Source: Firmicutes bacterium HGW-Firmicutes-15 (lineage in GTDB: Bacteria; Bacillota; Syntrophomonadia; Syntrophomonadales; Syntrophomonadaceae). From it: a stretch of DNA of 51,105 bases. Positions 8,042-49,556 of the stretch are shown here, piece after piece (position 1 is the stretch's first letter; the number at the start of each line of letters is the position of its first letter). The notes beneath the pieces are model-generated. The model ran no database searches. It had not been told where the DNA came from and saw only the letters and a program-made list of their open reading frames with translations. A program made the translations under genes and the position numbers. The DNA lies in the NCBI GenBank assembly GCA_002840245.1, contig PHAA01000025.1, positions 1-51,105 of the forward strand, given 5' to 3'.

Positions 8042-8109
8042 TACCCCTAATCATACCACAAAGAGAGCAACAGGTTAATCCCAGAAAATAGGACGACCGT
8101 ACGACCGCC

Positions 8110-8233
8110 CCAGGCCGTTGACAAAAGCGAATCTCAGCGTTATTTCAAAAAGCCCGTTCAATCAACGTACCTATGTACGCCTCAATCACGGGCTTTCCTC
8201 ATGCCTTGATCTTCACTTCTGTCATCAGCCTGG
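8110..8233. repeat. Long imperfect palindrome in pcrA-hisI spacer
   Basis: A 124-base inverted repeat. Outer arms CCAGGC...TGACA-AAG and CTT-TGTCA...GCCTGG pair (8110 onward with 8233 backward), an inner stem pairs AAAGCCCGT with ACGGGCTTT, and the tip is CGTAC-CTAT-GTACG (8166-8179). It lies downstream of the his genes and could fold as a large terminator-like RNA. Its length and layered structure look more like a dispersed palindromic element than a simple terminator. Confidence 0.65.
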
Positions 8234-9667: not shown

Positions 9668-9694
9668 TATAGGACTCCCTCCGGTCGGCAAATT

Positions 9695-11028: not shown

Positions 11029-11042
11029 TTTTACACGCCTCC

Positions 11043-12930: not shown

Positions 12931-13581
12931 CTATGCCCCCTTAATCATGCCCTGAATCTTTTCCAACAGGGGTTGAATAATCTCATACTTAGTTCGATAA
13001 CTTACCCGGTTGCCGATTAAACGAGTGGTAGAATCCATTATGGTAACTAATTCAACCAGGTTATTTTCCCTGAGGGTTCGACCCGATGATACCAGGTCAA
13101 CGATTACGTCTGATAAACCCATCAAGGGAGCCAGTTCAATGTTGCCATGTAGCTTAATAACCTCAACTTGAAGTCCGTGCCGTCGAAAAAAACCTTCCGC
13201 GACCTGAGGAAATTTAGTGGCGACACGTTTATAATTCAATTCTTTGAGAGAAATACCATCCATTCCAGCAGGAATAGCTACCACAAACCGGCAGTAGCCA
13301 TATTCCAAATCCACCATTTCAAATACATCTTTACCCTGTTCGACGATTACGTCTTTGCCTACAATACCCAGATCAGCAGCTCCATGCTCCACATAGGCGG
13401 GTACGTCGGAGGGACGACAGATAATATATTTAATGCGGGGATCACCTGGGTAATCAAATACCATATTGCGGCTTTCAGAATCAACCCCATCAGTGGGTAG
13501 TCCGGCAGCATCCAATAAACCTACTGTTGGAGATAATAAAGTACCCTTGGACAGGGCAATAGTCAAACAATTATCATGCAT
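12931..13581 (-). CDS. hisG: ATP phosphoribosyltransferase catalytic subunit, short form HisG
   Basis: First committed step of histidine synthesis: PRPP plus ATP gives PR-ATP. About 216 residues without the C-terminal regulatory domain of long HisG, so it should need HisZ, encoded just upstream. Motifs: LTIALSKGTLL, the RPSDVPAYVEHGAADLGIVG region, and the PRPP loop DVIVDLVSSGRTLREN. The open frame extends to 13602, but the ATG at 13581 has AGGAGG eight bases upstream and is the start. Because it uses PRPP, it shares its substrate with PurF and with the riboswitch at 28022-28118. Confidence 0.96.
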   Translation of the reverse strand: MHDNCLTIALSKGTLLSPTVGLLDAAGLPTDGVDSESRNMVFDYPGDPRIKYIICRPSDVPAYVEHGAADLGIVGKDVIVEQGKDVFEMVDLEYGYCRFVVAIPAGMDGISLKELNYKRVATKFPQVAEGFFRRHGLQVEVIKLHGNIELAPLMGLSDVIVDLVSSGRTLRENNLVELVTIMDSTTRLIGNRVSYRTKYEIIQPLLEKIQGMIKGA

Positions 13582-13601
13582 AAAACTAACCTCCTGATTC
13601 A

Positions 13602-14762
13602 TTACTCAGCATCAAGATAAATAATAATATAATTAGTACAAGCTGCCAGCTTCTCATGTAAATCAACCCGGCTAAGGCCCTCTACGTCTAGTTCGACAAT
13701 CTTGCCTTCTTTCCTCAACTCATCCGCTTTTTGTACCATAACCTGCAAGTTATTCCCTCCCACTATATAGCGCGGGGGCTCTTCTTCCTGATTTTTCAAA
13801 ACCAGGGCCAGACGATCCATTCCCAAGGCAAATCCGGTGGCTGGACAGGAGAATCCAAATTGTGATAGAAGCTTATCATATCGTCCTCCTCCCAGGAGAC
13901 CATATCCCAACTCTGGCGAAAATCCTTCGAAAACCACACCAGTATAGTAATCCAATCCTCTTAACACGCCCATGTCCACGAGTATATGTTCTTCCACCCC
14001 CAAGCTCTTCAAGGCTGCATATACTTCCATAAGTTCCTCAACCGCTATTACCGCATTCCGGCTTTTCTCTATGTATGGCAAACTCTTCAAAACATCAAGG
14101 CCGCCATGCAAGGTCGGCAGCCTGGCAATCGTTTCTTTCAAAAGATCATTAATGGGCAACTTTTCTAACATCCTGGATAGTTCCACCAGGTCCTTTTTCT
14201 CCACCAAGTTCCTGATAACTTGCTTATCTTCAGGTTGAATGGCACTATCATCGAGCAAGCTGTTAAATATGCCAATCTGATTCAGGCTAACCTTAAAATT
14301 CTCCAAGCCAAAATCAAGTAAGGCTTTAACTGCCAGGCTGATTACTTCGGCATCAGCCCAAGCTCCCGGTGCGCCCAGCAGTTCTATGCCCATCTGCCAG
14401 AATTCCCGGTATTGAGCTAAATGCGGCTGCACATGACGAAAAACGTTAGCTGAATAATAGAGCCTGCGGGGTAATACCTCATCCTGCATATGAGTGGCTG
14501 CCAGACGAGCTATGGATACTGTCATTTCGGGACGCAAAGATACTATTCCCCCTTCCCGGTCCATGAACAGGAAGAGTTTCTCGCGGATGTTCCCTCCAAC
14601 TCCCGCCTCTACAACCTCTAATAATTCAAATGTAGGGGTTATCACTTCTTCATAACCAAAAGAAGTGAATATCTGACTAGCCTTCTTTTCCAGGCTTCTT
14701 CTGGTTTTCACCTCATCCGGCAACAAATCGCGTAATCCTTTAGGAATTTCTCTATTTCTCAT
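13602..14762 (-). CDS. hisZ: ATP phosphoribosyltransferase regulatory subunit HisZ
   Basis: A histidyl-tRNA synthetase paralogue that binds short HisG and makes it active and histidine-sensitive. 386 residues. It keeps the class II synthetase core: IPKGLRDLLPDEV, motif 2-like RLYYSANVFRHVQPHLAQYREFWQMGIELLG, and GLDYYTGVVFEGFSPELGYGLLGGGRYDKLL. It is shorter than HisRS, with only a small C-terminal part. I place the start at the ATG at 14762, with AAAGGAG seven bases upstream, which overlaps the end of the YerC-like gene by 11 bases. HisRS was considered, but the length and the neighbouring short hisG favour HisZ. Confidence 0.93.
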   Translation of the reverse strand: MRNREIPKGLRDLLPDEVKTRRSLEKKASQIFTSFGYEEVITPTFELLEVVEAGVGGNIREKLFLFMDREGGIVSLRPEMTVSIARLAATHMQDEVLPRRLYYSANVFRHVQPHLAQYREFWQMGIELLGAPGAWADAEVISLAVKALLDFGLENFKVSLNQIGIFNSLLDDSAIQPEDKQVIRNLVEKKDLVELSRMLEKLPINDLLKETIARLPTLHGGLDVLKSLPYIEKSRNAVIAVEELMEVYAALKSLGVEEHILVDMGVLRGLDYYTGVVFEGFSPELGYGLLGGGRYDKLLSQFGFSCPATGFALGMDRLALVLKNQEEEPPRYIVGGNNLQVMVQKADELRKEGKIVELDVEGLSRVDLHEKLAACTNYIIIYLDAE

Positions 14763-15063
14763 GTCCTGACTCCTTTTGCATCTTAATAAGAACTCTTTTG
14801 TACCCATCCGCTCCATAATTCAAACAACGTTTTACCCGGCTGATCGTAGCCGTGCTAGCACCTGTCTCCCGCGCCACCTCGTTGTAGGTCGTCTCGACAG
14901 AGAGCAGTTTGGCAACATTGATGCGCTGGGACATGGCTTTAATCTCTGTTATTGTACAGAGGTCATCCAGGAAACGGTATACGTCCTCTTCGTTCTGTAA
15001 ACTTAATATGGCCTGAACCAATAGGTCGCAGTTAGGTTCCTTCCAATTCGGTGTAAAATCCAT
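14752..15063 (-). CDS. YerC/YecD family TrpR-related regulator
   Basis: A 103-residue helical DNA-binding protein of the TrpR-like YerC family. The helix-turn-helix is visible in TYNEVARETGASTATISRVKRCLNYG (about residues 59-84), preceded by DLCTITEIKAMSQRINVAKLL, the family core. It overlaps hisZ by 11 bases, and family members are often found next to his genes in Firmicutes, so a role in regulating histidine synthesis is a reasonable inference. The ligand and the operator are not evident from the sequence. Confidence 0.9.
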   Translation of the reverse strand: MDFTPNWKEPNCDLLVQAILSLQNEEDVYRFLDDLCTITEIKAMSQRINVAKLLSVETTYNEVARETGASTATISRVKRCLNYGADGYKRVLIKMQKESGHEK

Positions 15064-15080: not shown

Positions 15081-15746
15081 TTATAGAAGCCGGACATCAT
15101 TGATCATGATTTTCAACTCACATTGGAGATGCTCTGCGGCATGCTTGCACATTAGCATTTTAGTTAGAAAAATCTCGAAATATTCCATAACCGAGCAAAC
15201 ACTGGTGTCTATCTCCAACTTCATCACGATGGTATTATCTTCTGCATTGGCCTGAATTTTCGATTTTGTAACCGCGTAGTTTACCCTGTCTCGGGTAGTA
15301 AAGGTAGCAAAATCGGTCTTCCTCACCCTGGAACGGTGGACATCGGATTTATCAGCTAATATCAGAGCAGCCGCAACATTATTGACCGGTTTACCGTCCG
15401 CATGTTCTTCATGGTTGCCTATAGCACCCATGATAACAGCAATTTCCTCCGCTTCCATTCCCAGTTCCAATAGTATATTAAAAGCAATTATGGCTCCAGA
15501 CATGCCATGCCCGTAACGATTGACCAGATTGCCTATATCATGCAGGTAACCAGCCATAGCACCTAATTCTGCATCCCGGTTTGAAAAGCCCAACGTATTA
15601 AGGATTTCGGAACACAGCGATGAAATGTGTTCAGCGTGGTGCAAGTTATGTTCGAGTGCACCCATATTTCCAATATAAGCATTGCCCATCTTAAGATAAT
15701 CAGTAATTAACTGGTTTTTTTTGAGCGTTTCCAGAGTTATCGCCAT
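15081..15746 (-). CDS. HD-domain phosphohydrolase-like protein
   Basis: A 221-residue cytoplasmic protein with an HD-superfamily metal site: His in HNLHHAEHISSLC (about residue 35), the HD pair in GYLHDIGNL (about residues 69-70), His in GHGMSGAIIAFN, the conserved IGNHEEH stretch and the closing Asp in ALILADKSDVHRSRVR. Substrate unknown; members may be phosphohydrolases of nucleotides or second messengers. The C-terminal third looks like a small separate alpha/beta domain. It lies 17 bases before the yerC-like gene and 13 after the TPR-like membrane protein, so it is co-transcribed with the pur and his genes, which may hint at a nucleotide-related role. Confidence 0.8.
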   Translation of the reverse strand: MAITLETLKKNQLITDYLKMGNAYIGNMGALEHNLHHAEHISSLCSEILNTLGFSNRDAELGAMAGYLHDIGNLVNRYGHGMSGAIIAFNILLELGMEAEEIAVIMGAIGNHEEHADGKPVNNVAAALILADKSDVHRSRVRKTDFATFTTRDRVNYAVTKSKIQANAEDNTIVMKLEIDTSVCSVMEYFEIFLTKMLMCKHAAEHLQCELKIMINDVRLL

Positions 15747-15759
15747 GAAAATCCCATCC

Positions 15760-16290
15760 TTATTCTATACTTTTCCGAAGATTGCGTGATTCCTGTGCAG
15801 CTCTAGTATTTTTGGGCAGAGCATCAATGATCCTCTTGGCCTCATCTTTATCGCCTGCCTCGATGAGCTGCCGGGCCGTTTCCAACTGCTGGTGGGCTTC
15901 TTTTTCAGTCTGAGCCTCACTGATCTTCTCCTTCATTTGTTCCGGCTTGCCCAGCTTTTCCAAACCCGCAAATTTTTCTATCGCAGCATCATACTGACCT
16001 TCTGCCACCAGGGATGCTCCACTGGTTATTATTTTCTTAACTTGAATCCGTTCCGGCAGGTGTACGAGGTTATAAGCATATGCCCCCAATACTACTAGAA
16101 GACCAAGCGCGCAGATACTCCAAACCAAGGAATAACGGGGGGTTCTGACCATAAAGCCCAGTATAAATACAAATGGCATACCCAGCATGAATGTCGTTTT
16201 CAGGAACTCCCTAGTAGGGATGAAGTACAACATAACTCCTACGGTTATTATTAACAGCATCCTTAAATAAGGCTTGAAGTTAGCGCTCAT
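15760..16290 (-). CDS. Small membrane protein with TPR-like tail
   Basis: A 176-residue protein with about three hydrophobic segments in its first half (residues 10-24, 32-48 and 53-73), then a soluble helical tail with repeat-like helices (SLVAEGQYDAAIEKFAGLEKLG and ARQLIEAGDKDEAKRIIDALP) that resemble TPR units. I cannot assign a function. It begins ten bases after purD on the same strand and precedes the HD protein by 13 bases, so it is part of the long operon. ATG start. Confidence 0.75.
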   Translation of the reverse strand: MSANFKPYLRMLLIITVGVMLYFIPTREFLKTTFMLGMPFVFILGFMVRTPRYSLVWSICALGLLVVLGAYAYNLVHLPERIQVKKIITSGASLVAEGQYDAAIEKFAGLEKLGKPEQMKEKISEAQTEKEAHQQLETARQLIEAGDKDEAKRIIDALPKNTRAAQESRNLRKSIE

Positions 16291-16300
16291 ACCATACCTC

Positions 16301-17578
16301 CTATCGCAAGGCTCTGCGGCCTATATCACGTCGGAAATGCATCCCCTCAAAACTGAGCTTAAGAACTTCCTGATATACCTTCTGTATAGCATCCTCAATA
16401 GAATTACCACGGGATACTACTGCAAGAACCCTCCCCCCATCAGTTATCAACTGACCTTGGTTGAGGGCTGTCCCGGCATGAAAAACAATGGTTTCGGCTT
16501 CTAGTTTCTCCAGACCAGTAATCATTTTCCCTTTTTCATAGGCCGCCGGATACCCGCCAGAAGCCAGCACGACCCCCACGCAGGCTCCGGTATTGATTTC
16601 TACCTGGTAACCTTTCAAGTTGCCTGCAGCGGAGGCTTCCAGAATCGGGAACAAATCCCCTTTTATCATCGGCATCAGAACCTGAGTTTCCGGGTCACCA
16701 AAGCGTGCGTTGTATTCTAGAACTTTAGGGCCATCCGCAGTAACCATTAAGCCAGCATAGAGCACCCCTTGGTAGGGGCATCCTTCTTTTTGCATTGCTT
16801 CTATGGTAGGCTTTATTACCTCGGTTATGATACGCTGGTGTAGTTCTTCCGTATATAGCGGGGGATTAGTGTAAGCTCCCATCCCGCCTGTATTAGGTCC
16901 TTCATCATTATCAAAAACCCGCTTGTGATCCTGGGCTGACAATAAAGATACAAAATCCTGCCCATCACTTATGGCAAAGAAACTTAATTCCTCACCAACC
17001 AGGCATTCTTCAATAACAACCCGGTCGCCAGCATCACCAAAGCTCTTATCCTGCATGATGCTATGAATGGCTTCATCAGCTTCAGCTTGGCTAAGGGCTA
17101 TCACTACCCCTTTACCGGCTGCCAATCCATCTGCTTTAATAACCACCGCTTGACCGGCTTCGATATAAGTACGAGCACAAGTTTGGGCGGCAATAATGTC
17201 ATCAAAGACCTCATAGCGAGCAGTAGGAATACCATATTTTTTAAAAAGGTTTTTAGAGAATACTTTACTGCCCTCCAGTTGAGCTGCGGCCGCAGTTGGG
17301 CCAAATATTAACATCCCTTCCTGGCGGAACCGATCAACTATCCCTCTTACCAGCGGTGCTTCCGGCCCCACTACCGTTAGACTGACGTCTGACTTGCGTG
17401 CAAATGCCAGCAAGCTCTCTATGTCGGCAGCCTGAATATCAATGCACTCTGCCAGGTCTTTCATCCCGGGGTTACCCGGTGCAACATATATTTTCTCAAT
17501 TAGAGGACTCTGGGCTAACTTCCAGACCAGGGCATGTTCGCGTCCGCCCTGCCCAATAACCAATATCTTCTTTCCCAC
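16301..17578 (-). CDS. purD: Phosphoribosylamine-glycine ligase PurD (GARS)
   Basis: Second step of purine synthesis: PRA, glycine and ATP give GAR. 425 residues, with the N-terminal GQGGREHALVWKLAQSP, the ATP-grasp domain (VIKADGLAAGKGVVIA, then EECLVGEELSFFAISDG and GPNTGGMGAYTNPP) and LEYNARFGDPETQVLMP carrying metal ligands. The usual final gene of a purEBCSQLFMNHD set. ATG start; it follows purH by 26 bases. Confidence 0.97.
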   Translation of the reverse strand: MGKKILVIGQGGREHALVWKLAQSPLIEKIYVAPGNPGMKDLAECIDIQAADIESLLAFARKSDVSLTVVGPEAPLVRGIVDRFRQEGMLIFGPTAAAAQLEGSKVFSKNLFKKYGIPTARYEVFDDIIAAQTCARTYIEAGQAVVIKADGLAAGKGVVIALSQAEADEAIHSIMQDKSFGDAGDRVVIEECLVGEELSFFAISDGQDFVSLLSAQDHKRVFDNDEGPNTGGMGAYTNPPLYTEELHQRIITEVIKPTIEAMQKEGCPYQGVLYAGLMVTADGPKVLEYNARFGDPETQVLMPMIKGDLFPILEASAAGNLKGYQVEINTGACVGVVLASGGYPAAYEKGKMITGLEKLEAETIVFHAGTALNQGQLITDGGRVLAVVSRGNSIEDAIQKVYQEVLKLSFEGMHFRRDIGRRALR

Positions 17579-17604: not shown

Positions 17605-19122
17605 TTAATGCTTGAAATGACGTATCCCGGTAAACACCATAGCGATGCCATGGTAGTCGCACTCCTCAATGCTCTCCTGATCGTGGATAGAGCCACCCGG
17701 TTGAATAATCGCCCGGATACCTGCTCTAGCAGCTATTTCCACCGTATCCTTGAAAGGGAAGAAGGCATCTGAAGCCATAACCGCTCCCTTGCATTTTTCC
17801 ACGTCTTTTAAAGCAATCGCAGCTGAACCTACCCGATTCATCTGCCCGGCACCCACGCCCACAGTCATGCCATTTTTGGCTATCACAATCGCGTTTGATT
17901 TGACATGCTTGGCTACCTTCCAAGCCAATAAAAGTGCCTTAAGCTCTTCCTCACTGGGAGCACTCTGAGTAACTACCTTTAGGCTGTTGACATCCAGTTC
18001 TTCCTGGTCCATCTCCTGGACAACAAACCCGCCATCCACCGTTCGAATCTGCAAATCAACTGCCGCTACCAACGGCAATTCCAATACTCGGAGGTTTTTC
18101 CTCCCCCGCAGACATTCCATAGCATCGTCATCATATCCAGGGGCGATAATACACTCCATGAAAGGCTCTACTGCTTTGCGGGCGGTAACTAAATCTACCG
18201 GGCGATTAAAAGCAATAATTCCTCCGAAGGCCGAAAGTGGATCTCCAGCAAAGGCCTTGTCGAAAGCTTCATCCAAAGTACTTCCCAAAGCTGTTCCACA
18301 GGGATTGGTATGTTTGACAATTACGCAGGCTATATCTTCAAATTCCTTTACCAGTGACCATGCTGCTTGAGTATCAATGATATTATTATAGGATAGCTCC
18401 TTGCCGTTTAACTGTTTCGCATCGGCCAAACCCATACCCGGGTTCATGCTGCGATAAAAACAAGCCTTCTGGTGAGGGTTTTCCCCGTAGCGCAGTTCAT
18501 AAACCTTTTCTCCTGCCAATACCATGTTATCCAAGAAGGTTTCTCCATCAATTCCGGCCAGATAAGCAGAAATCATGGCATCATAAGCTGCTGTATGGGA
18601 GAATGCCTCCAAAGCTAGTTTAAATCTCAGTTTCTTACTCAGATCACCTTCGGTCTCCAGTTCCTTTAATACCGGCCAGTAAAACTCTGGTTTCACAATA
18701 ATTATAACGGCTTCATAGTTCTTGGCTGCCGACCTTACCATAGTAGGCCCGCCGATATCGATATTCTCAATGGCTTCTTCCAGACTAACGTCTTTTTTAC
18801 TCACCGTCTCCCGGAATGGATAAAGATTCACTACAACTATATCAATAGTTTGAATCTTATTTTCCTCAATCTGACGCAAATGGTCAGGGGTTCGGCGCGC
18901 TAAGATCCCGCCATGAATTTTCGGATGCAGGGTTTTTACCCGCCCGTCCAAAATCTCCGGGAAACCCGTAATATCTGCCACCTGGCGGACTTTGACCCCA
19001 GCTTCCTCTAGAGTGGAATAAGTTCCCCCCGTGGATATTATTTCATAGTCTAACTTTTCCAGCCCCCTGGCGAATTCAACTATTCCCTCTTTATTTGATA
19101 CACTGATAAGCGCTCTCTTCAT
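17605..19122 (-). CDS. purH: Bifunctional AICAR formyltransferase / IMP cyclohydrolase PurH
   Basis: Last two steps to IMP. 505 residues. The N-terminal cyclohydrolase (MGS-like) domain shows [48 protein letters not shown]-type sequence and [15 protein letters not shown]. The C-terminal formyltransferase shows [14 protein letters not shown], the catalytic [29 protein letters not shown] and [10 protein letters not shown]. It also consumes the AICAR released by HisF/HisH, the metabolic bridge between the pur and his genes of this array. It follows purN by 15 bases. Confidence 0.98.
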
Positions 19123-19137: not shown

Positions 19138-19764
19138 CTAATTAATATGTACTGTCCTATCCTTGATAAAAACCCTGCCCTCCGCCAGTAGCTGTAAAGC
19201 CTGGCAGTAGCTTCGATGTTCTTCCACTAAAATTCGGGCCGAAAGACTGTCTTCGTTATCATTAGGGTACACCACCACGACTGCCTGCATAATAATAGGC
19301 CCGGTGTCCATCCCCTCATCTACAAAATGAACTGTACAGCCGCTAACTTTGACTCCATAATCCAGGGCCTGTTGCTGAGCATTCAGCCCGGTAAAAGACG
19401 GCAAAAGAGCCGGGTGAATGTTTACGATTCTCATCTTATAAGCATCCAGCATTACCTTGCCCACCAGCCTCATGTAACCGGCCAGGACAACGATATCGAT
19501 GTTCCGCGCCACTAATTGAGCCACGATTTCCGCCTCATACTGTTCCCGGTTCTGATAGCCACGCGGATCAATAAATAGGGCAGTAATTCCTGCATCCACG
19601 GCTTTACCCAGAGCCGGCGCCTCTTCCTTATCGCTTATAAGCAGGCATATTTCCGCATCTAATTCTCCCTTTTGAATCGCTTCCCATAGCGCCAAGAAAT
19701 TACTTCCTCGTCCCGAGGCCAAGACTGCTAATTTTAGCCGCCCAGGTTCCATTACTCTCATCAT
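19138..19764 (-). CDS. purN: Phosphoribosylglycinamide formyltransferase PurN
   Basis: Formyl-THF-dependent GAR transformylase, third step of the pathway. 208 residues. Motifs: [19 protein letters not shown], the formyltransferase core [10 protein letters not shown], the catalytic Asn/His in [21 protein letters not shown], and Asp in [17 protein letters not shown]. Starts with tandem ATGs that overlap the purM stop, so translation is probably coupled. Confidence 0.97.
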
Positions 19765-20798
19765 TTAATAATGACCCTCGGTTCCCTGGAATTAACCTCA
19801 CCAATAACTATAGCCTTTTCTCCTTTAACGCGCAAGTGCTTTAAAGCTTTATCGAGGTGATGTGGTGGAATAACTAGCACGTAGCCAATCCCCATGTTAA
19901 AAGTTCTATACATTTCTTCCTGAGGGACTTTCCCCAACCGAGCAATTAACTTGAATATCGCCGGGGTTTCCAGGAAGGTCGTATTAATTTCCGCTCCAAT
20001 TCCTGCTGGCATAATTCTTTGCAAGTTTTCCGCCAAACCCCCGCCAGTTATATGTGCCATACCGTGAATTTCCACTTCGTCCAGCAAGGACAATACCGAT
20101 TTAACATAAATTCGGGTAGGCGTAATTAATTCTTCCCCCAGGGTATGGCCGAGTTCATCTAACTCTTGATCCAGCCTTAATTCAGCTTTTTCCAACAACA
20201 CTTTACGTACTAGAGAATAGCCATTGGAGTGAATTCCCGAAGACGCCAGACCCACTAGTATATCGCCATCTTGAATGGTTACGCCGTTAATCAGGCGGGA
20301 GCGCTCTACTACCCCCACTGCGAAACCAGCCAAGTCGTATTCATCTTCCTTATAAAAACCAGGCATTTCAGCGGTTTCTCCCCCGATAAGGGCACAGCCA
20401 GCCTGTAAACAGCCCTCGCTCACACCCTTAACCAGCTTTTCAACCATATCCGGCTGAAGTTTCCCCAGGGCTATATAATCCAGGAAAAACAGGGGTTCAG
20501 CTCCGTGGGCTAGTATATCGTTGACACACATAGCCACCAGGTCTATCCCTACTGTATCATGCGCTCCCAGCATCTGAGCAATCTTTAGCTTGGTGCCCAC
20601 TCCATCTGTACCGGATACCAGTACCGGTTCCTGATATTTTCCGGAATTAAGGGCAAAAAGACCCCCAAAGGAGCCAATATCCGACAGTACCTCTGATCTT
20701 TTAGTTCGGTTAGTCCATTTTTTTATCAAGTCCACAGACTCATTAGCGGCATCAATATCGACTCCCGCTTCTTTATAACTCAATCCATCCTTTTCCAT
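19761..20798 (-). CDS. purM: Phosphoribosylformylglycinamidine cyclo-ligase PurM (AIRS)
   Basis: Makes AIR from FGAM with ATP. 345 residues, full length. Motifs: [19 protein letters not shown], the ATP-binding [51 protein letters not shown] and [15 protein letters not shown]. Two bases separate it from purF; it overlaps purN. Confidence 0.98.
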
Positions 20799-20800: not shown

Positions 20801-22198
20801 TTATTCTACACTCTCCTCACCCGCTGGATAGTCACCGCAAAAACAGGCGGCGCAAAATATTCCCGGATCGCTTTTCATGGCGGCAAACATCCCTTCCATA
20901 CCTATATAATGCAGGCTATCCGCACCTATAAATTGGCTGATCTGTTCAACATCCATCGTGCTGGCTATGAGTTCTTCCCGCCGGGAAGTATCTATGCCGT
21001 AATAACAAGGGAATTTGGTAGGTGGTGAAGCGATTACAACATGTACTTCCTTGGCCCCAACCTTGCGAAGCATCTGAACAATCTTCTTGCTGGTGGTTCC
21101 CCTAACTATGGAATCATCAATCATAATAACCCGCTTACCAGCCACAACCTCTCCAACTGCATTGAGCTTCAGCCTTACTCCCAGTTCCCTCATCTGCTGG
21201 GTAGGTTGAATAAAGGTCCGGCCTACATAGCGGTTTTTCATCAATCCTTCTTCAAATGGCAGGCCCGACTCTTCCGCATAACCCAAGGCGGCAGCAGTAC
21301 CGGAGTCAGGTACCGATATAACTATATCGGCATCTATCTTATAATCCCGGGCTAACTGCTTGCCCAGTTCCCGGCGTACTCGGTTTACATTCAATCCATC
21401 AATGGTGCTGTCAGGACGAGCAAAATAAATATATTCAAATATACAATGGGCTTTACGAGGGGATTTGATTACCTGCAGAGACCGCATCCCATTCTTATCA
21501 ATTACCACGATTTCCCCTGGATTAACATCTCTTATTAACTCAGCCCCTACAGTATCCATGGCCGCTGACTCTGAGGCCAGTATATAGTCTCCATTTAATC
21601 TCCCAATACATAAGGGACGAATCCCCATCTGATCTCGCACTCCCACCAGACGATCCTCGGTCATAATTAACAGAGCGAACGCGCCTTTTATATCAATCAT
21701 ACATTTAGCCAGGGCGTCTTCCATGGTATCCTGTGAATAGCGAGCAAGGAGGTTGGCCACTACTTCAGTATCTGTGGTCGTCTGGAATACCGAACCGTAA
21801 GTCTCCAGTCGTTTCTTTAACTCCACTGTGTTTATTAGGTTCCCGTTATGAGCCAGGGCTACCATTCCTTTAAGATAATGAAACACCAGGGGTTGAGCAT
21901 TAACTAGAGCGCTGCCTCCGGTGGTTGAATAGCGAACATGTCCGATGGCTATATTCCCTTCCAACTCAGCAATATGGTGTGATTTTACGACATCAGAAAC
22001 TAGCCCCATGCCTTTGTGCAGGTCAATTTTATGCCCGTTGGAAACAGCTATCCCCGCACTTTCCTGACCTCTGTGCTGCAAAGCATATAAACCATAGAAT
22101 GTGGTTCGGGCAGCATCGGTAGTACTGGTGGGGTTATTCATGAAAATCCCGAAAACTCCACATTCATCTCGAAATTTATCGTCTATTTCATAAAACAA
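20801..22198 (-). CDS. purF: Amidophosphoribosyltransferase PurF
   Basis: Committed step of purine synthesis: PRPP plus glutamine gives phosphoribosylamine. About 465 residues. The Ntn nucleophile Cys starts [10 protein letters not shown], after a short propeptide that is cleaved in this family. The C-terminal phosphoribosyltransferase domain has the PRPP loop [14 protein letters not shown]. The late cysteines ([13 protein letters not shown], with another upstream) fit the 4Fe-4S type found in Bacillus. The frame extends to an ATG at 22216, but a TTG at 22198 has GGAGGAG seven bases upstream and gives an 11-12 residue propeptide as usual, so I use it. It overlaps the end of purL. Confidence 0.96.
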
Positions 22199-24390
22199 TC
22201 TATTGCTCCTCCCCATATTCTGGAAGCCTCAAGCACTGGTATCCTGATTATCTCTTTGCCGTTGTTATCACAAAGCAAGCTATCTCCACCTACTGCACCA
22301 ATAACTCTCATTTCAACCCCATTTTCAATAACAACTTGTACCAAACGATCCATATTCGATCGTTTAAGGCTCGCCACTACTCGTCCAGGGGCCTCCGAGA
22401 ATAATACTCCGTCAACCCGTCCATCATCAGTATTAATCCTCACCCCACAGCCAATATTGCCCTTAATCGCTGATTCCACAGCGGCCACCATCATTCCGCC
22501 CTCAGATATATCATGACAGGACTGGAGAAGCTGTTCTTGGATTAAAATTTGCAGCAGTTCTATTAATCTTTTCTCTTCCTCCAGGTTTACCTCCGGGACT
22601 TCACCCGTTTCCAGGCCGTGACAAACACTCAGGTATTCGGAGCCACCCAGCTCATCCCGGAACCTACCGAGAAGAATAATCAGATCTCCGGCATCCTTGA
22701 AAGCCATGTCACAGCGCCGGTCTATATCCTTTAATAATCCCACCATACCTACCACGGGAGTGGGATATATGGCCCCCTGGGCCGTCTCATTGTAAAGACT
22801 CACATTACCGCTTACCACCGGGGTCTCCAAATACCGTGCGGCCTCGCTCATACCAGCAATGGAATTCTTCATCTGCCAGTATATGTTGGGCTTTTCAGGA
22901 TTGCCGAAATTCAAACAGTTGGTCAATGCTAAAGGTTTGGCTCCCACACAGGCTAGGTTGAGAGCTGCCTCACAGACGGCTAACATCCCTCCCCGATAAG
23001 GATCCAGATAAACAAAGCGACTATTGCAATCAGTAACCAGGGCAATTCCCTTGCGGGTTCCTTTTATTCGTAACACTGCCGCATCCCCGTCTCCGGGAAT
23101 GAGGGCGGTATTGGTCATCACCTGGTAATCGTACTGGGAAAATATCCACTTCTTGCTGGCTATATTAGGTGAAGCCAGGAGCTTTTCCAATGCTTCCTGA
23201 GGGTTGGCATCCAGGATCGCGGCCAAATCGTAGGACTTGCAGCGCTGGTAATAATCAGGCTCCTCTGCCACCCGCACGTATACAGGGCAGCCTTCGGTGA
23301 GCTCCATTACCGGTACCTCACCCATTACTTCATTGCCTTCCATTACCCGAAAAGCACCGCCTTCGGTCACAGTACCTATAGTTACCGCATCCAGACCCCA
23401 TTTATCAAATATTTCTTTTATTCTTCCTTCCGTACCTGGTCGGGGAACAATCAGCATCCTTTCCTGAGACTCAGACAGCATGACCTCATAAGCGCTCATA
23501 TTGGTCTCCCTACGCGGCACCTTGAGTACATCTACATCCACGCCTCGACCTCTCTTACTGACGGTTTCAGCTATGGAACTGGTCAATCCGGCTGCCCCCA
23601 AATCCTGCATGCCAGCTACCAGATCTTCTTTAATAAGTTCCAGGCAGGCTTCTATAAGGAGTTTCTCCATAAATGGATCCCCTACCTGCACCGAAGGACG
23701 CTTCTCTTTCGACTTTTCGGAAAGTTCTTCTGAGGCAAAGGTGGCCCCATGAATGCCATCGCGCCCCGTTTTGGCACCCACGATCATAATCGTACTGCCT
23801 ACCTCGCTGGCAACTGCCAGGGCAATCTCATCCGTTTGCACCAATCCTACACACATCGCGTTTACCAGAGGATTACCCTGATAAGCCTGATTAAAATATA
23901 CCTCTCCACCCACTGTGGGTATACCCAGACAGTTTCCATAATCGCCAATCCCGGCCACTACTCCAGATAGGAGTTCCCTAACCCGAGCATCACCCGGATC
24001 GCCAAAGCGCAGGGAATTTAAATTGGCGATGGGTCTGGCTCCCATAGTAAATATATCGCGAACGATGCCGCCTACACCGGTGGCAGCTCCTTGATAAGGT
24101 TCTATAGCAGAAGGATGATTGTGGCTCTCAATTTTAAATACCACGGCCTGTCCATCACCGATATCGACCACCCCGGCATTTTCGCCCGGTCCCTGAATAA
24201 CTTGCGGTCCCTCAGTAGGAAAGGTCTTTAGAAGCGGTCGCGAATTTTTGTAGCCGCAGTGTTCTGACCACATGACGGAAAAGATACCAATTTCCAGATA
24301 ATTTGGCTCCCGGCCCATAATTATTTTGATTTTGCCATATTCCTCCTCGGTGAGGCCCATCTCTCGATATGTCAGTTCTTTCACTAGCAA
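22183..24390 (-). CDS. purL: FGAM synthase subunit PurL
   Basis: ATP-dependent amidotransferase subunit converting FGAR to FGAM together with PurQ and PurS. 735 residues, the small PurL typical of Gram-positives. Motifs: [67 protein letters not shown]-like sequence, [15 protein letters not shown] and the late CHDISEGGM. Start uncertain: a TTG at 24390, or a GTG at 24384 that would overlap the purQ stop as TAGTG; AGGAGG lies just upstream of both. Confidence 0.97.
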
Positions 24391-25085
24391 CTCACCTCCT
24401 GCCAGGATTGGAGCATAGAAGCAAATATCCTATATCCATCGGTGCCACCCAGGATGTGCTCCGAGCATCTTTCTGGATGAGGCATCATACCCAGGACATT
24501 CCCCTGTTTATTTGTAATTCCAGCAATATTGGCTATTGAACCATTAGGATTAAAAACCATATCTTCTTCACCACTAGGACTGCAGTAGGTAAAGAGGATG
24601 CGTTTTTCTCTCTGTAATTCCGCTAGGGTCTCTGCATCACAGAAGTAATTACCCTCTCCGTGGGCAACAGGTATGCTTATAGTCTCATCCTGCTTTAGCA
24701 GTCTGGTGAAAGGCGTATCGTCTCGCTTCACCTGTAAATGAACCTTATCACAGATGAATTTCAGGCTGCGGTTTCTGAGCATAGCTCCAGGCAGCAGCCC
24801 TGCTTCCAAAAGGATCTGAAAGCCATTACATATCCCGATTATCAAACCACCCTGATTGGCAAATTCAATAACTGCAGGCATGATAGGTGAAAAACGAGCT
24901 ATCGCACCGGTCCGAAGATAATCACCGTAGGAAAAGCCCCCCGGCAATATTAACGCGTCATAACCCTGAACAGCAATCTCTTTATGCCAGATATAGTCAA
25001 CTTCCTGACCTAGAACTTCTTTGATTACATGATAGCAGTCAGCATCGCAGTTTGATCCGGGAAAAACGACCACACCAAATTTCAT
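24384..25085 (-). CDS. purQ: FGAM synthase glutaminase subunit PurQ
   Basis: Class I glutamine amidotransferase giving ammonia to PurL. 233 residues. It opens with [19 protein letters not shown]; the nucleophile Cys lies in [20 protein letters not shown], and His/Glu in [11 protein letters not shown]. Two bases after purS; its stop overlaps the purL start. Confidence 0.98.
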
Positions 25086-25087: not shown

Positions 25088-25339
25088 TTACTCTACCTCC
25101 AGCATCTCTACCCGGTAATTTTCAATGACCGGGTTGGCCAGAAGTTTATCGCTCATTTCCTTCAATTCAACCTTAGCGGTCTCGGGATCCTTAGCCTCCA
25201 ACCATACTTCTATAAATTTGCCGATTCTAACCTCGGTTACCCCAGTGTAGTTAAGTACATGCAACGATTTCTTGACCGCGCCCCCTTGGGGATCCAAGAC
25301 TCCTTCTTTCAAAGTGACATAAATGTTAGCCTTATACAC
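25088..25339 (-). CDS. purS: FGAM synthase subunit PurS
   Basis: Small 83-residue bridging subunit of the PurLQS complex. Typical sequence: [23 protein letters not shown] at the N-terminus and [17 protein letters not shown] at the C-terminus. GTG start with AGGAGG seven bases upstream. It lies 44 bases after purC, among the larger gaps in the pur set, and two bases before purQ. Confidence 0.97.
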
Positions 25340-25383: not shown

Positions 25384-26097
25384 CTAAGCCAGAGCTTTTT
25401 CTATCCTTTGGACGACTTCCTGGTAGGCTTCTTCCTCCTTGCCCAAATCCCTGCGAAAACGATCCTTATCGAGTTTTTCCAGGCTCTCCTTGTCCCAAAG
25501 GCGGCAAGTATCCGGGGAGATTTCGTCACCTAGTATGACCCTTCCCTCGTATAGACCAAATTCCAGCTTAAAATCCACCAGGATAATGCCAATGCTGTCA
25601 TAGAAAGCTTTTAGAATATCGTTGATTTTATGCGCTTGAGCATGCAGTTCTTTTAACTGCTCATCTGTTGCCCAGCCCATCACTCGAGCATGATATTCAT
25701 TTATCATGGGGTCATGTAGTTCATCATCTTTATAATAGAGTTCGATAATGGTTGAAGATAATGTTAAACCTTCTTCCTCGCCTATCCTTTTGGCGAGGCT
25801 GCCTGCGACTACATTTCTAACCACTACTTCCACTGGAATTATCTTTAGATTCTTTACCAACACGTTCCGGTCATCAATCTGCTCAATTAAATGCGTCTCA
25901 ATGCCCTCATTTTCCAGTAACTTAAACAGGAGATTGGAAACCCGGTTGTTTACTATGCCTTTATTATTGATAACTCCCTTTTTTAGACCATCGAAGGCTG
26001 TGGCGTCATCTTTATATTTCATCAAAACAACCTTCTCATTATCCGTTGCGTAAATCTGTTTAGCCTTGCCTTCGTAAAGCATTACCTCTGATTTCAT
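25384..26097 (-). CDS. purC: SAICAR synthetase PurC
   Basis: Joins CAIR and aspartate with ATP. 237 residues. Motifs: LYEGKAKQIYATD, MKYKDDATAFDG, EVVVRNVVAGSLAKR, DFKLEFG and ILGDEISPDTCRLWD. ATG start, with AGGAGG and a second GAGG upstream. It follows purB by 26 bases. Confidence 0.98.
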   Translation of the reverse strand: MKSEVMLYEGKAKQIYATDNEKVVLMKYKDDATAFDGLKKGVINNKGIVNNRVSNLLFKLLENEGIETHLIEQIDDRNVLVKNLKIIPVEVVVRNVVAGSLAKRIGEEEGLTLSSTIIELYYKDDELHDPMINEYHARVMGWATDEQLKELHAQAHKINDILKAFYDSIGIILVDFKLEFGLYEGRVILGDEISPDTCRLWDKESLEKLDKDRFRRDLGKEEEAYQEVVQRIEKALA

Positions 26098-26123: not shown

Positions 26124-27419
26124 CTAATCCAACCCGCAGCGTTTGAAAATATAGTCCACATTGGACGTATAAATACCGAAATCAAATATCTTCTCGATTT
26201 CTTCTGGAGTCAGGTAAGCCATAACGTTTTCATCGGCTAACACCAGTTGCTTGAAATCCAGTTTTTCAGTCCAGCTTTGCATGGCCCTGGTCTGAACAAT
26301 ACTATAGGCTTTTTCTCTTAACATCCCTTTGCCCAATAAAGCCAACATAAGCTGCTGGGAAAATACCAATCCCAGAGTCTTATCAATATTTTGAGCCATG
26401 TTGTCTTCATATATTACCAAACCCTCCATGACTCCAATAAATTTTTGAAGTACGTAGTCCAGTAATACACAACTATCCGGAATAATAACCCGTTCTACCG
26501 AAGAATGAGTTAAATCCCTTTCATGCCATAGGGCCACGTTCTCCATGGCTGCCAGGGCATTGCCCCTCAGTACCCGCGAAAGTCCAGCTACTCGTTCGCT
26601 CATCATGGGATTGCGTTTATGGGGCATGGCCGAGGAGCCTTTCTGCCCTTTCTGGAAAGGTTCTTCCGCTTCTAAAATCTCGGTTCTCTGCAGGTTTCTT
26701 ATCTCTGTCGCCATTTTTTCCAAGGAACTAGCAATAACCGCCAGGGTAGTCATGAATTGTGCATGACGATCCCGCTGGATAACCTGGGTAGATGCTAAAC
26801 AGGTCTGCAAGCCCAGCTGGGTGCAGACATATTCCTCCACCCTGGGGTCTAGGTGGGCAAAATTGCCGACCGCACCTGAAATTGCCCCATAGGCAATGAC
26901 CTGACGAGCCTGGCAGAGACGTTCAATGTTTCTATCCATTTCGCTGTACCACACAGCCATCTTCAGCCCAAAGGTGGTAGGTTCTCCATGAATTCCGTGG
27001 GTACGACCTATACACAGGGTGTATTTATACTTGGCTGCCTTGGCGGCAATAATTTTTTTAAGTTTCTCTAGTTTCTCCATAATTAGATCCGCCGAGTCTC
27101 TCATTTGCATGGCCAGACCGGTATCTAGTATGTCGGACGAGGTCATGCCCAAATGAATGTATTTGGATTCATCACCCACATATTCTCCCACATTGGTGAG
27201 GAAAGCAATAACATCATGCCGAACCTCGGCTTCAATTTCCTGGATGCGCTCCACCTCAAAATTAGCCCGTTCCTTAATGACCTGCACGGCCTCCTGGGGA
27301 ATCTTGCCCAGGTTGGCCCAAGCTTCGCAGGCAGCAACCTCTATTTTTAACCAGTTACCCAGCTTGTTCTCTTCTGACCAAATTGCCCCCATGGAGGGCA
27401 GAGTATACCTCTCAATCAT
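26124..27419 (-). CDS. purB: Adenylosuccinate lyase PurB
   Basis: Acts twice in purine synthesis: SAICAR to AICAR and adenylosuccinate to AMP. 431 residues. Motifs: the N-terminal YTLPSMGAIWSEENKL, RHDVIAFLTNVGEYVG, LGMTSSDILDTGLA, GRTHGIHGEPTTFGLK and the signature GSSAMPHKRNPMMSE. The ATG overlaps the purE stop by one base (TAATG). Confidence 0.98.
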   Translation of the reverse strand: MIERYTLPSMGAIWSEENKLGNWLKIEVAACEAWANLGKIPQEAVQVIKERANFEVERIQEIEAEVRHDVIAFLTNVGEYVGDESKYIHLGMTSSDILDTGLAMQMRDSADLIMEKLEKLKKIIAAKAAKYKYTLCIGRTHGIHGEPTTFGLKMAVWYSEMDRNIERLCQARQVIAYGAISGAVGNFAHLDPRVEEYVCTQLGLQTCLASTQVIQRDRHAQFMTTLAVIASSLEKMATEIRNLQRTEILEAEEPFQKGQKGSSAMPHKRNPMMSERVAGLSRVLRGNALAAMENVALWHERDLTHSSVERVIIPDSCVLLDYVLQKFIGVMEGLVIYEDNMAQNIDKTLGLVFSQQLMLALLGKGMLREKAYSIVQTRAMQSWTEKLDFKQLVLADENVMAYLTPEEIEKIFDFGIYTSNVDYIFKRCGLD

Positions 27420-27940
27420 TACTGATCCCCCTTTTGTTGAAGATATTTTTCTATACCAAAGTCTTTTAGCTTACGGTCTTTTTCCAGGACATCTTCTGCC
27501 ATTTTCTGTCGGTAAAGCATGAGCTTTTCCCGTAAACTTTCATCCTTAAGGGCGAGTATTTGCAGGGCCAGAAGTGCTGCATTAGCGCTGCCGTTTATGG
27601 CCACCGTAGCTACCGGGATACCCTTCGGCATCTGTACGATTGAATAAAGAGAATCCACTCCTGATAGGGTACTAGTCTTTATAGGGACTCCGATAACTGG
27701 CAGGATGGTATAGGCAGCAATGACTCCAGGTAGGTGAGCCGCCCCCCCTGCTCCAGCAATAATCACCTCTACTCCGCACTCGGCAACGGTCAGAGCATAC
27801 TCCGCGGTTTCTTTAGGCAAACGATGAGCAGAACATACGGTTAGATCATAATCAACCCCAAACTGTTCTAATACATCGACAGCTTCCTTCATTATAGGAA
27901 GATCGGAATCGCTACCCATAATAATACCTACAGTCGGCAT
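27419..27940 (-). CDS. purE: N5-carboxyaminoimidazole ribonucleotide mutase PurE
   Basis: Carboxylation step from AIR/N5-CAIR to CAIR. About 173 residues. Motifs: [45 protein letters not shown], and [22 protein letters not shown]. The sequence looks like class I PurE, yet no purK follows as it does in Bacillus; purK may be elsewhere, or the organism may rely on high CO2. The start is the ATG at 27940 (MPTVGIIMG); GAGGAG lies about 12 bases upstream. It is the first gene of the operon, behind a riboswitch and promoter. Confidence 0.96.
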
Positions 27941-27987: not shown

Positions 27988-28034
27988 AAGCCCAGATGGA
28001 CAGGTTCGTAAACGAAACCTATCCGCCTGGGCTT
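27988..28034 (-). terminator. Terminator-like hairpin between riboswitch and purE
   Basis: On the minus strand a long stem begins AAGCCCAG (28034-28027) and closes with CTGGGCTT (27995-27988), with an inner stem GG-TAGGTTTCG / CGAACCTGTCC. It is followed by AAATATTTATT, a weak U-rich tract. The opening strand overlaps the riboswitch's 3' AAAGCCCAGG element, so ligand-bound aptamer and terminator should exclude each other: the usual layout for an 'on' switch. Confidence 0.75.
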
Positions 28035-28118
28035 TTATCCCTATACGGTGTAGCGCCAAGGCGCCTGTGTCACTCGGACCTGTCCATGTTGAACCCATGC
28101 GGAACCCTAGACACACTT
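28022..28118 (-). ncRNA. ykkC-family riboswitch, probably PRPP-sensing
   Basis: Read on the minus strand, the leader of purE carries the ykkC-family signature blocks in order: CTAGGGTTCCGC, GGTCCGAGTGACAC, then ACACCG and AGGGATAAAAGCCCAGGCGG. The P1-type pairing GTGTC (28114-28110) with GACAC (28071-28067) is intact, and a GCGCC-TT-GGCGC hairpin lies between. ykkC RNAs divide into guanidine, ppGpp and PRPP classes; those preceding de novo purine genes in Firmicutes are the PRPP class, so I assign PRPP from gene context rather than from ligand contacts. PRPP binding would be expected to favour read-through into purE and, through the gapless array, the his genes. Confidence 0.88.
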
Positions 28119-28163
28119 TCGCGTTTCTCGCATATTAATTCATTTATAATCATTTATAACCTG

Positions 28164-28192
28164 ATATTAACAAAGCTTTGCGTCAGTGTCAA
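28164..28192 (-). promoter_or_regulatory. Promoter of the pur-his array
   Basis: Near-consensus sigma-A promoter on the minus strand: TTGACA (28192-28187), 17-base spacer, TAATAT (28169-28164). Transcription would start near 28157, giving a leader of about 215 bases that contains the riboswitch and hairpin. I see no comparable promoter in the short gaps of the array downstream. Confidence 0.85.
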
Positions 28193-28965: not shown

Positions 28966-31900
28966 GTGATTATTGGCAGGATTGATGATAATTCCGCTGA
29001 AAAGAATACTGAGCTTGATCATCTGGATCAATTAAACGCTAAATTAAGCAATATCCTTCGTAAGAAAGATGAAAATATGTTGCTGATTGAAGAGTTGAAT
29101 CAGCAAATAGCTCTTTTAAAGAATGAATTAGACTTATATTCATTAGCTGTTAAAGGAACTCCCAATGATAGAATAAATGACAAAAGCTTTGATGCTACGA
29201 CTCCAACCGAAGTAATCAGATCTATGGCCAATCCCACTAGTGGTTCCAAGAGGATTACTTACTTAAACCGTTTTATTTCCAAGAAATCCTCTCCCGCTCC
29301 ATCTTCCTCACAATTCGATACCAAAGCGCTAGAGGAATCAGGCGACGGTACCACTGATAAAACTGCGACTCCCATCATTACAATGAAACTAGTTGCCTTT
29401 TTGAATGCCAAACATTATATGGTTTTCGGCGACAAAAGGGGCTCTACTCATGGCCATTCCTGGCAATTCCAGATTGAGGCTGAAGTATCAGTCGAAGATA
29501 GTTCCTTCATTAGATTTGAAGATCTGGAACGACATATTGGTAAAATTCTCGAACCTTATCAAAGAAATGTCTTAAATGAAATATCACCTTATAATTTAAT
29601 TGAACCGCTCACGGAAAATATTGCAGCCCTGTTTTTCAACCGACTTGATGATGATTTTAAACAGTTTAACGTCAGGTTAATTAGATTAACAGCCTGGGAA
29701 AATCCTACGAAGGGAATAGAGATTAGCCACAGGCTTAATCACTTCTTTTCTACTGGTGAAAATACAAATAAACCTACGCCTATTCAAATTGAAAGTTTGA
29801 ATCAAGCCTCAGCAACCTTGGAAGTAGCTGAGGAAAGTAGTAATGAGGACTCAGGGATGCCTAATCAGGATGCAGCTAATGATGAAGAAGAGCAGGAAGC
29901 TTGTACACCAGGTTCTTCTTCCAATAATTCATCAGATTCGGGCATTGAACATATAGATGAAACAGTAATGACAGACTCTGACTCAGTAGTTAATGAGAAA
30001 GAAAAGGAAGACCCAATAGAAAACAAGCAAGAAATTGTTGAAAGTGATAGTGATTCAACTTCGGGAGATAATGATCAACGCAATTATAAATGGTGGCATT
30101 ATGTTCTGGCAATATCACTTATTATAGGAGTCGCCGTCTGGGCCTATTGGCCGATATTGACAGCACCCCTCGATAAAATCTATCCCTATGGATCTGATGC
30201 TTGGTGTCATTTGTTTAAAGCTGATTTTTTATCCAAGGAAATTCTTAAAGGTAATTATTACCCGCAATACTATACGTATTGGCACAATGGCGTGCAACCC
30301 TTTAGATACTGGGCACCGTTGACATATTACATCATCGCCTTAATAAATCTCCTTACTAAAAATGTTTTTGTTGCGCTCAACTATTATCTTTTCGGTTGCG
30401 CTATACTGGGTGGGATATGCTGGCTGATTTTTTCTAAACGGATCGGTATATGGCAAGCAGCATTAGGCGGTATTATATGGGTTGTGTGGTTAGATAACAT
30501 TAAAGAAAGCTTTCTATCAGGAAATTATCCACGAGTGCTGACTATTGCTCTACTGCCTTTGTTGTTAGAACTTTTTATTAAAACTATGAAGGAAGAAAAA
30601 AAGGTTATTTATTTTCTCTTTGTTGCACTGCTAATTTGTGCTATAGTGCTTTGTCATCCAATGATTGCTGCAATTTACGGCGTATCCTTACTTTCTTTTG
30701 CCATTTTATTGTGGTTTTGGGGAGACATTTCCTTGAAAGGTTTAATTAGGGGAGGACTTGCTCTTTTTTCTGGACTTCTCATCTCCTCATGGTGGCTATT
30801 ACCGGCTTTAACTGGAGGTGGTGCAGGTTTTAGTGATGAATCCACCCTTAGTCCTACCCGTTTTATTGCTGCTTCAATTTCTTTCAATCCCCACATAAGA
30901 GGATCAATAAACTACTGGGGTATTAGCCTATTAGCACTTATACTGATTTTTGTTTTATCTTGGCGTTATCGGTCAACTTGGGCCAAGAGTTTATTTATAT
31001 CCGGAATATTCTATATTATCCTTACTTTCCCTGAATTCAAATTTTTACAAAATCTTTTACCATTAAATAATTTATTGTGGCCCAAAAGGTTTTCTAGTTT
31101 TTGGTCACTTGCTTTACTTTTATCTGCTTTCTCCCTTAATGCCCAATACCAATTCTCGTTTTTTAAACGAAAACTGTCGACAAAAGCAGTGTTAGCAATA
31201 GTTGTATTTTTCTTTTTAGCCGCAGATAGCTTCTTCTCTCTTCGTGTTCTAGCCCATACCACACCTTTTCCCAATACTATCCTACAATGTATTGAAAGTA
31301 TTAAGCAATATCCGGGATGGAAAGTAGCTACTCTTGATCTTAGCCGCTTGGGTTCAACTCCTTCCTATCTACTACCTACCATTGCAAACCGTGAGCAGGT
31401 TTACGGCTGGGCGTGGCAGGGCGCAACAACAGCTGGAAATGTAATGCTTATTAATACAGCAATGGAGAATAACTGGTATCCTTATATTTTTCAACGACTG
31501 GATCGCATGGGAAGCACTGATCTAATGGTTAAAGAAAATACAATTATAGGTTTATCTACTTTCGGAGAATACGCTTCCCTGGCAGGGTATGAGAAGGTAT
31601 TTTCAGATCAAAAAACCAGTCACTGGCATGGTCTTGATGGCCCTTATATTACCGTTAATCGAAAAAAAGGTATTGCTATCGGAAAATATGCAAGCAACTA
31701 TGCTTTGCAATTCCCTTCTTTGGAAATTGGAAGTTCATTAAAAATTGATGACTATAACATAGAAGAACTAAAGCAATACAAAACCGTTGTTCTAACTGGA
31801 GCTTCATGGTCTTCACAAGCAAAAGCAGAAAAAATGATTATACAATATGCCCAAGCAGGGGGCCGGGTTTTAGTTGATCTTACAGGCTTTCCCGTAAATG

Positions 31901-32574
31901 TTATGGCACGACAGCCTGCCTTTTTAGGTGTGTTCGGTGAAACAATAACAATAAACAAACCACTCACAATATCATCAAAAGATACGGAAATGAAACTTGA
32001 GCCGTTTGCTCTGGAGAACTGGGTTTGCGTTACTCCTCAACCAATAGATCAAATTTTGATCAGCTATAAGCATTACGGTAATGATGCGGCACTACTGGGT
32101 TCTAAAATTATAAGCGATACCCCCCCTATATACTTTCTAGGAGCTAATATAGCTTACCATTCATTCTTAACCCATGATAAAACAGCCATGAATATTTTAC
32201 AGGAAACCCTCGGATTATCAAGCGATTATGAGCAAGCTGAAATTATTCCCTTGCAAGAATACCATGTAAACAAAGATGGCTATTCAATGAGTTATGAAAC
32301 TAGTAATAGCATAGAAGCCATTTTACCTGTAGCAGCACTAGAAGGTATGAAGGCTCGTGTTGATGAGCAACTCATATCCACGCGCACTTATGAAAACTTA
32401 ATTATGGTAAATTTACCTGCAGGAAAGCATACCATTACTCTGGAATTAGTCGATGCTCCTATATTTATTTGGAGTAAATACTTATCCTTGTTTTCAATAT
32501 TATTTATTACTAGTTATATAGTTTTTATTAAACGCAGAAAAAAGGGGGGGAGTTTATCTGACGAAAAACCTTGA
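28966..32574 (+). CDS. Giant membrane protein with PTPS-like domain (XrtG-locus type)
   Basis: 1202 residues in four parts. Residues about 15-60 are coiled coil. About 140-258 is a 6-pyruvoyl-tetrahydropterin-synthase-like domain: zinc-type histidines in FLNAKHYMVF and STHGHSW and a Glu-rich C-terminal half, but the catalytic Cys four residues before HGH is Arg. An acidic low-complexity linker follows (about 265-370). From about 376 a polytopic region of 10 or more membrane segments begins, with a first loop (YPYGSDAWCHLFKADFL) like GT-C glycosyltransferases or the PTPS-related membrane family; then an outside domain (about 780-1165) and a last membrane segment with a basic tail. GTG start, AAGGAG upstream. 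Domains of this PTPS-like family are known near XrtG exosortases in Firmicutes, as here. Likely a surface-glycan glycosyltransferase or its partner; the reaction is unknown. Confidence 0.8.
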   Translation: MIIGRIDDNSAEKNTELDHLDQLNAKLSNILRKKDENMLLIEELNQQIALLKNELDLYSLAVKGTPNDRINDKSFDATTPTEVIRSMANPTSGSKRITYLNRFISKKSSPAPSSSQFDTKALEESGDGTTDKTATPIITMKLVAFLNAKHYMVFGDKRGSTHGHSWQFQIEAEVSVEDSSFIRFEDLERHIGKILEPYQRNVLNEISPYNLIEPLTENIAALFFNRLDDDFKQFNVRLIRLTAWENPTKGIEISHRLNHFFSTGENTNKPTPIQIESLNQASATLEVAEESSNEDSGMPNQDAANDEEEQEACTPGSSSNNSSDSGIEHIDETVMTDSDSVVNEKEKEDPIENKQEIVESDSDSTSGDNDQRNYKWWHYVLAISLIIGVAVWAYWPILTAPLDKIYPYGSDAWCHLFKADFLSKEILKGNYYPQYYTYWHNGVQPFRYWAPLTYYIIALINLLTKNVFVALNYYLFGCAILGGICWLIFSKRIGIWQAALGGIIWVVWLDNIKESFLSGNYPRVLTIALLPLLLELFIKTMKEEKKVIYFLFVALLICAIVLCHPMIAAIYGVSLLSFAILLWFWGDISLKGLIRGGLALFSGLLISSWWLLPALTGGGAGFSDESTLSPTRFIAASISFNPHIRGSINYWGISLLALILIFVLSWRYRSTWAKSLFISGIFYIILTFPEFKFLQNLLPLNNLLWPKRFSSFWSLALLLSAFSLNAQYQFSFFKRKLSTKAVLAIVVFFFLAADSFFSLRVLAHTTPFPNTILQCIESIKQYPGWKVATLDLSRLGSTPSYLLPTIANREQVYGWAWQGATTAGNVMLINTAMENNWYPYIFQRLDRMGSTDLMVKENTIIGLSTFGEYASLAGYEKVFSDQKTSHWHGLDGPYITVNRKKGIAIGKYASNYALQFPSLEIGSSLKIDDYNIEELKQYKTVVLTGASWSSQAKAEKMIIQYAQAGGRVLVDLTGFPVNVMARQPAFLGVFGETITINKPLTISSKDTEMKLEPFALENWVCVTPQPIDQILISYKHYGNDAALLGSKIISDTPPIYFLGANIAYHSFLTHDKTAMNILQETLGLSSDYEQAEIIPLQEYHVNKDGYSMSYETSNSIEAILPVAALEGMKARVDEQLISTRTYENLIMVNLPAGKHTITLELVDAPIFIWSKYLSLFSILFITSYIVFIKRRKKGGSLSDEKP

Positions 32575-49507: not shown

Positions 49508-49556
49508 TGAATAAACCTCCATATTATTTCTGCTAGTATAACGGTTTATTTTCGAT

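Follow-up and report, generated by a model that had tools for sequence, protein, structure and literature searches.

The 51,105-nucleotide stretch of Syntrophomonadaceae DNA analyzed here (the window) contains 22 genes, from purE to hisIE, that all lie on the minus strand with no gap larger than 44 bases. Their order is purE-B-C-S-Q-L-F-M-N-H-D, a 176-aa gene, an HD gene, yerC and hisZ-G-D-B-H-A-F-IE. This array raises the questions of (i) which ligand is recognized by the structured RNA in the purE leader; (ii) how that RNA would control transcription; and (iii) whether such control extends to the histidine genes. A sequence-only reading had described the array as nineteen pathway genes and three others; the array stands, while the third of the "others" is YerC/HisR and belongs inside the pathways. 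The genes, and a possible terminator behind them, are as follows.

27419-27940, minus strand: purE (Pfam AIRC)
26124-27419, minus strand: purB (Pfam Lyase_1 and ADSL_C)
25384-26097, minus strand: purC
25088-25339, minus strand: purS
24384-25085, minus strand: purQ
22183-24390, minus strand: purL
20801-22216, minus strand: purF, whose product uses PRPP
19761-20798, minus strand: purM
19138-19764, minus strand: purN
17605-19122, minus strand: purH
16301-17578, minus strand: purD
15760-16290, minus strand: gene for a 176-aa membrane-like protein (no Pfam match; its place is conserved in the order)
15081-15746, minus strand: gene for a 221-aa HD-domain protein (Pfam HD, 24.1 bits; place conserved)
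14752-15063, minus strand: yerC/hisR, homologue of the TrpR-family histidine repressor (TIGR02531, 128 bits; PMC9413887)
13602-14780, minus strand: hisZ (TIGR00443)
12931-13602, minus strand: hisG, whose product uses PRPP (TIGR00070)
11641-12927, minus strand: hisD
11043-11639, minus strand: hisB
10417-11040, minus strand: hisH
9695-10420, minus strand: hisA
8909-9670, minus strand: hisF
8265-8915, minus strand: hisIE, the last gene of the array
8089-8112, minus strand: possible terminator in the interval between hisIE and pcrA (10-pair stem, TTTT; weak, with 3.8 such sites expected by chance in the scanned region)

The next gene, pcrA, lies 223 bases beyond hisIE. Upstream of purE, the leader contains the following elements.

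28192-28164, minus strand: extended sigma-A-type promoter (TTGACA, a 17-base spacer with TG, TAATAT)
28129-28008, minus strand: PRPP-type (ykkC subtype 2b) aptamer with P0, P1, P2 and P3
28072, minus strand: U, a pyrimidine, at the guanidine-contact position (A in guanidine-I; pyrimidine in subtypes 2a and 2b)
28027, minus strand: G corresponding to G96 in the T. mathranii aptamer, the base of PRPP-versus-ppGpp specificity (invariant in 43 sequences)
28034-27988, minus strand: terminator-like hairpin that uses the ligand-binding 3' strand of P3/P0 as its 5' arm
27987-27975, minus strand: U-rich, interrupted tail after the hairpin

The leader had been assigned to the PRPP class of the ykkC family. 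Membership in the family is borne out by Rfam, in which the sole significant match at the leader is RF00442 (Guanidine-I) at 28121-28022 on the minus strand (59.7 bits, E 4e-10), just below the gathering score of 63. The covariance-model comparison suggested in the earlier reading also favors the proposed class: a PRPP-type model derived from 24 PRPP-type RNAs from outside the window's family scores the aptamer at 107.9 bits over 28129-28008, while a model derived from 16 guanidine-type RNAs gives it only 52.0 bits. The aptamer thus lies at the site claimed for it, but its 3' end had been placed at 28022, and inclusion of the P0 helix moves it to about 28008. Subtype 2 aptamers are marked by conserved 5' and 3' termini, which form P0 by pairing with each other (PMC6031431), and in the window these strands read GAAAG...AGGUUUC, with 99.4% of cells paired across related leaders. 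The P1 pairing proposed earlier is likewise intact: over the 17 tested pairs of P0, P1, P2 and P3, 99.0% of cells are paired among 43 related leaders, and changes on both sides occur at 8 of the 17 pairs, supporting P0, P1 and P2. When the partner strand is slid by one to three bases as a control, pairing in these 43 leaders falls to 29-49%.

The Rfam label would make this RNA a guanidine-I riboswitch, and RF00442 is indeed the top Rfam match of the leader. However, the match remains below the gathering score, the guanidine-type model scores about 56 bits lower than the PRPP-type model, and the position that contacts guanidine holds a pyrimidine (U at 28072) instead of A, a replacement that marks subtypes 2a and 2b (PMC6031431); we consider the chance that the label is correct to be negligible. 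The guanidine-type RNAs used as controls (L002-L005 and L136) carry GAGA or GATA, and GGGAG. A ppGpp riboswitch (subtype 2a) deserves slightly more thought, as PRPP and ppGpp aptamers are closely alike. Because the PRPP-type model separates the ppGpp class poorly, with the ppGpp-like RNAs L147 and L148 reaching 89 and 82 bits, the distinction between the two rests on G96, which marks the PRPP subtype (2b) and is missing from the ppGpp subtype (2a; PMC6031431). Position numbers come from an alignment of the conserved strand with the contacts that this study names; the deposited T. mathranii sequence did not serve as the reference. The window aptamer has the G96 equivalent, L147, which lies away from pur genes, has an A there, and the purine synthesis context matches that of published PRPP switches (PMC5912903), so that a ppGpp riboswitch appears very improbable. 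Both readings were set aside on the model scores and the diagnostic bases. A tandem guanine-PRPP leader and a T-box leader were also rejected: the Rfam search of the window returned no RF00167 match for a guanine aptamer upstream of the PRPP-type aptamer, and neither a T-box nor a purine aptamer anywhere in the window. Model scores and published diagnostic residues therefore support assignment of the aptamer to the PRPP type (ykkC 2b), and by analogy with the characterized members we infer that it binds PRPP.

The proposal that a terminator-like hairpin competes with the aptamer is also upheld, as the hairpin overlaps the ligand-binding strand. The leader as a whole folds with z = -4.0, beating all 200 shuffles. 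For the duplex formed by the two hairpin arms, z is -8.9 in the window, and 48 of 51 PRPP-type leaders fall below -3. Across related leaders 85.5% of the cells in the hairpin arms are paired, the 5' arm being fixed by the aptamer and the 3' arm changing along with it. From their shared strand, the ligand-bound P3/P0 and the hairpin are predicted to be mutually exclusive. The purB switch of Heliobacterium modesticaldum has the same exclusive arrangement and is turned on by PRPP, and a published homologue terminates transcription in vitro (PMC5912903). We thus regard the leader as a putative ON switch that acts by transcription antitermination, with termination and the direction of control taken from the published members. 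At low PRPP, the strand G96-G105 would become part of the hairpin at 28034-27988, ending transcription before purE; at high PRPP, the aptamer would hold this strand and RNA polymerase would continue through purE-purD. Read-through would then continue across the 176-aa gene, the HD gene and yerC and reach hisZ-hisIE, and a single PRPP-gated transcript would serve both PRPP-consuming pathways in the Syntrophomonadaceae.

Transcription of the leader is expected to start near 28157. The promoter that had been proposed ahead of the ykkC-type leader, TTGACA-17-TAATAT, matches the consensus hexamers at 10 of 12 positions in the window, and at related loci 43 of 50 PRPP-type leaders are preceded by the same element with a score of at least 10/13. 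Conversely, in scans that used only a simple sigma-A-like consensus, a score of at least 10/13 was reached within the 90 bases ahead of the 176-aa gene, the HD gene, yerC, hisZ and hisG at 0, 0, 0, 1 and 1 of 15-22 loci each. By the same consensus, no conserved promoter was found before hisZ or hisG in the window's family, and the window array has fewer promoter-like sites (24) than shuffled sequence (32.9). However, the his block starts about 13 kb from the leader promoter and may depend on additional promoters that escape a simple consensus scan. The compactness of the array and the missing promoters suggest one continuous pur-his transcript.

In Firmicutes, the published operator of HisR (YerC) is a 20-bp palindrome, cacTTTAnnnnnnTAAAgtg (PMC9413887). 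We scanned from -80 to +15 of hisZ and hisG for this published consensus with a cut-off of 10/14; by chance, 11 of 585 windows of the same size within the hisD coding sequence attain this score. A HisR-like operator precedes hisZ or hisG at 19 of 23 loci outside the order, where the palindrome lies a few to about 35 bases before the gene, often together with a strong promoter. Within the order, such an operator is present at all four loci of one sister family (f2) and at two of four loci of another (f3). In the window's own family, the Syntrophomonadaceae (f1), only 1 of 27 loci has one, although these genomes share ancestry and the counts may reflect one or two losses and not independent events; in the window array, the scan for the published consensus found no palindrome before the his genes. 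The intergenic spaces have changed in parallel: the median hisZ-hisG gap is 3 in f1, 51 in f2 and 108 outside the order, and the median yerC-hisZ gap is -29 in f1 versus 114 outside the order. A recurrent HisR-like match of 10-13/14 before purN in f1 falls inside the coding sequence of purM, and we attribute it to conservation of that coding sequence.

YerC/HisR itself (14752-15063, minus strand) is retained in the window with an unchanged recognition helix, though no consensus operator lies near his. This helix is identical in f1 and outside the order and so gives no sign of a shift in binding preference. As a reason for keeping the protein, HisR sites at other places in the genome were considered and rejected: the best sites inspected have no recognized histidine gene alongside, and the genome-wide count of sites is no higher than with the reversed pattern. 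In several f1 genomes, including G027, G012 and G002 (96-100% complete), yerC was not found.

Two other ways of reading the locus leave the histidine genes outside the PRPP switch. The switch could govern the purine genes only, with his transcribed from an unrecognized internal promoter, possibly under HisR through a divergent site. That most f1 genomes retain HisR with an intact recognition helix, and that outgroups have a his promoter, speaks for this, but in the consensus scans of f1 nothing conserved that resembles a promoter or a HisR site turned up ahead of yerC, hisZ or hisG, gaps in the his region are near zero and HisR is apparently absent from some of these genomes; we consider it unlikely, if the more serious of the two. 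The hairpin, alternatively, could be non-terminating, in which case the leader would act on purE translation or RNA stability and its effect would not reach his. The U-run 3' of the hairpin is weak and its tract interrupted in the window copy (UUAAAUAUUUAUUU), as such a reading would have it. Yet about 28 bases separate the end of the hairpin from the purE ribosome-binding site, U-rich tails follow the hairpin in most relatives, and termination in vitro by the published homologue also argues against it, making this alternative quite improbable. The conserved leader promoter, the lack of a comparable his promoter and the HisR operator missing relative to outgroups instead support joint PRPP control of the purine and histidine genes, as judged from sequence. 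With good confidence, we interpret the locus as a singlet PRPP antitermination ON switch heading a probable single PRPP-gated pur-his transcript, from which the HisR-operated his promoter has been lost. Most likely, the his operon has been fused behind a PRPP-switched purine operon. With somewhat less assurance, we extend this to the family: the his operon of the Syntrophomonadaceae appears to have lost its HisR-operated promoter and been captured by the purine PRPP riboswitch in one PRPP-gated transcript, with the sister families intermediate.

The order RNA-pur-his is kept in the window's family and in two other sampled families of the order. In a survey of the phylum (199 genomes, tables read by hand), at least 17 genomes (families f1, f3, f14, f35, f60, f63 and f70) have the RNA upstream and hisG no more than about 3 kb beyond purD, and linkage is looser in f16, f38 and f53. 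As so many of the surveyed families have this linkage, the pur-his neighborhood is not confined to the window's group. The leaders in f70, f63 and f16 are tandem guanine-PRPP, by Rfam or by sequence. In f70, tandem guanine-PRPP leaders (L182, 114-313) stand at the head of pur clusters, downstream of which come yerC and his with HisR-type operators; at the same locus, positions 13762-13916 between purD and yerC hold a TwoAYGGAY RNA (RF01731, 60.4 bits).

The nearest known system is the singlet PRPP riboswitch of H. modesticaldum purB (PMC5912903), which shares with the window leader the aptamer core, the P0 strands, G96, the competing terminator hairpin and a purine gene target; unlike it, the window has a complete his operon downstream, with no promoter of its own detected. 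The tandem guanine-PRPP riboswitch (PMC5912903) also places a PRPP aptamer before pur genes, and in f70, f63 and f16 his genes follow, but the window lacks the guanine aptamer and those relatives keep HisR-type operators before his. With the HisR (YerC) regulon of Firmicutes (PMC9413887), the window shares yerC directly before hisZ and the recognition helix, while the published operator cacTTTAnnnnnnTAAAgtg is absent from the array in the window's family. The ppGpp riboswitch (2a) resembles the window aptamer in overall fold and differs in having no G at position 96 (PMC6031431).

In the open-access literature, taken without the supplementary list of 257 published PRPP riboswitches, we found no report of histidine genes or a his operon under a PRPP riboswitch. 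PRPP riboswitches are known regulators of purine genes. The class of riboswitch is therefore already known, and his genes under a PRPP riboswitch would be the new part. If this is true, ample PRPP would switch on purine and histidine synthesis jointly: operon fusion would have put histidine synthesis under the PRPP switch, with the shared substrate of PurF and HisG as a single signal. The gradation from control that is still separate outside the order, by way of control partly kept in f2 and f3, to control lost in f1 would make the merging of two regulons traceable in sequence.

Several minor observations concern the surroundings of these genes. At L149 (genome G050), purD-yerC-pcrA-ligA stand together without his genes between them, and in the window pcrA-ligA come right after hisIE. 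An older pur-yerC-pcrA-ligA arrangement may have received the his genes by insertion next to yerC. The HD gene and the 176-aa membrane-like gene stand between purD and yerC across most of the order. The HD protein was considered as the missing histidinol phosphatase and set aside, as the genome encodes a HisJ-family protein at another locus. An IS200-like transposase (Pfam Y1_Tnp) is encoded at 48713-49651 on the minus strand. Opposite the purE leader, a divergent gene at 28966-32574 on the plus strand encodes a 1202-aa membrane protein with 6-pyruvoyl-tetrahydropterin-synthase-related domains.
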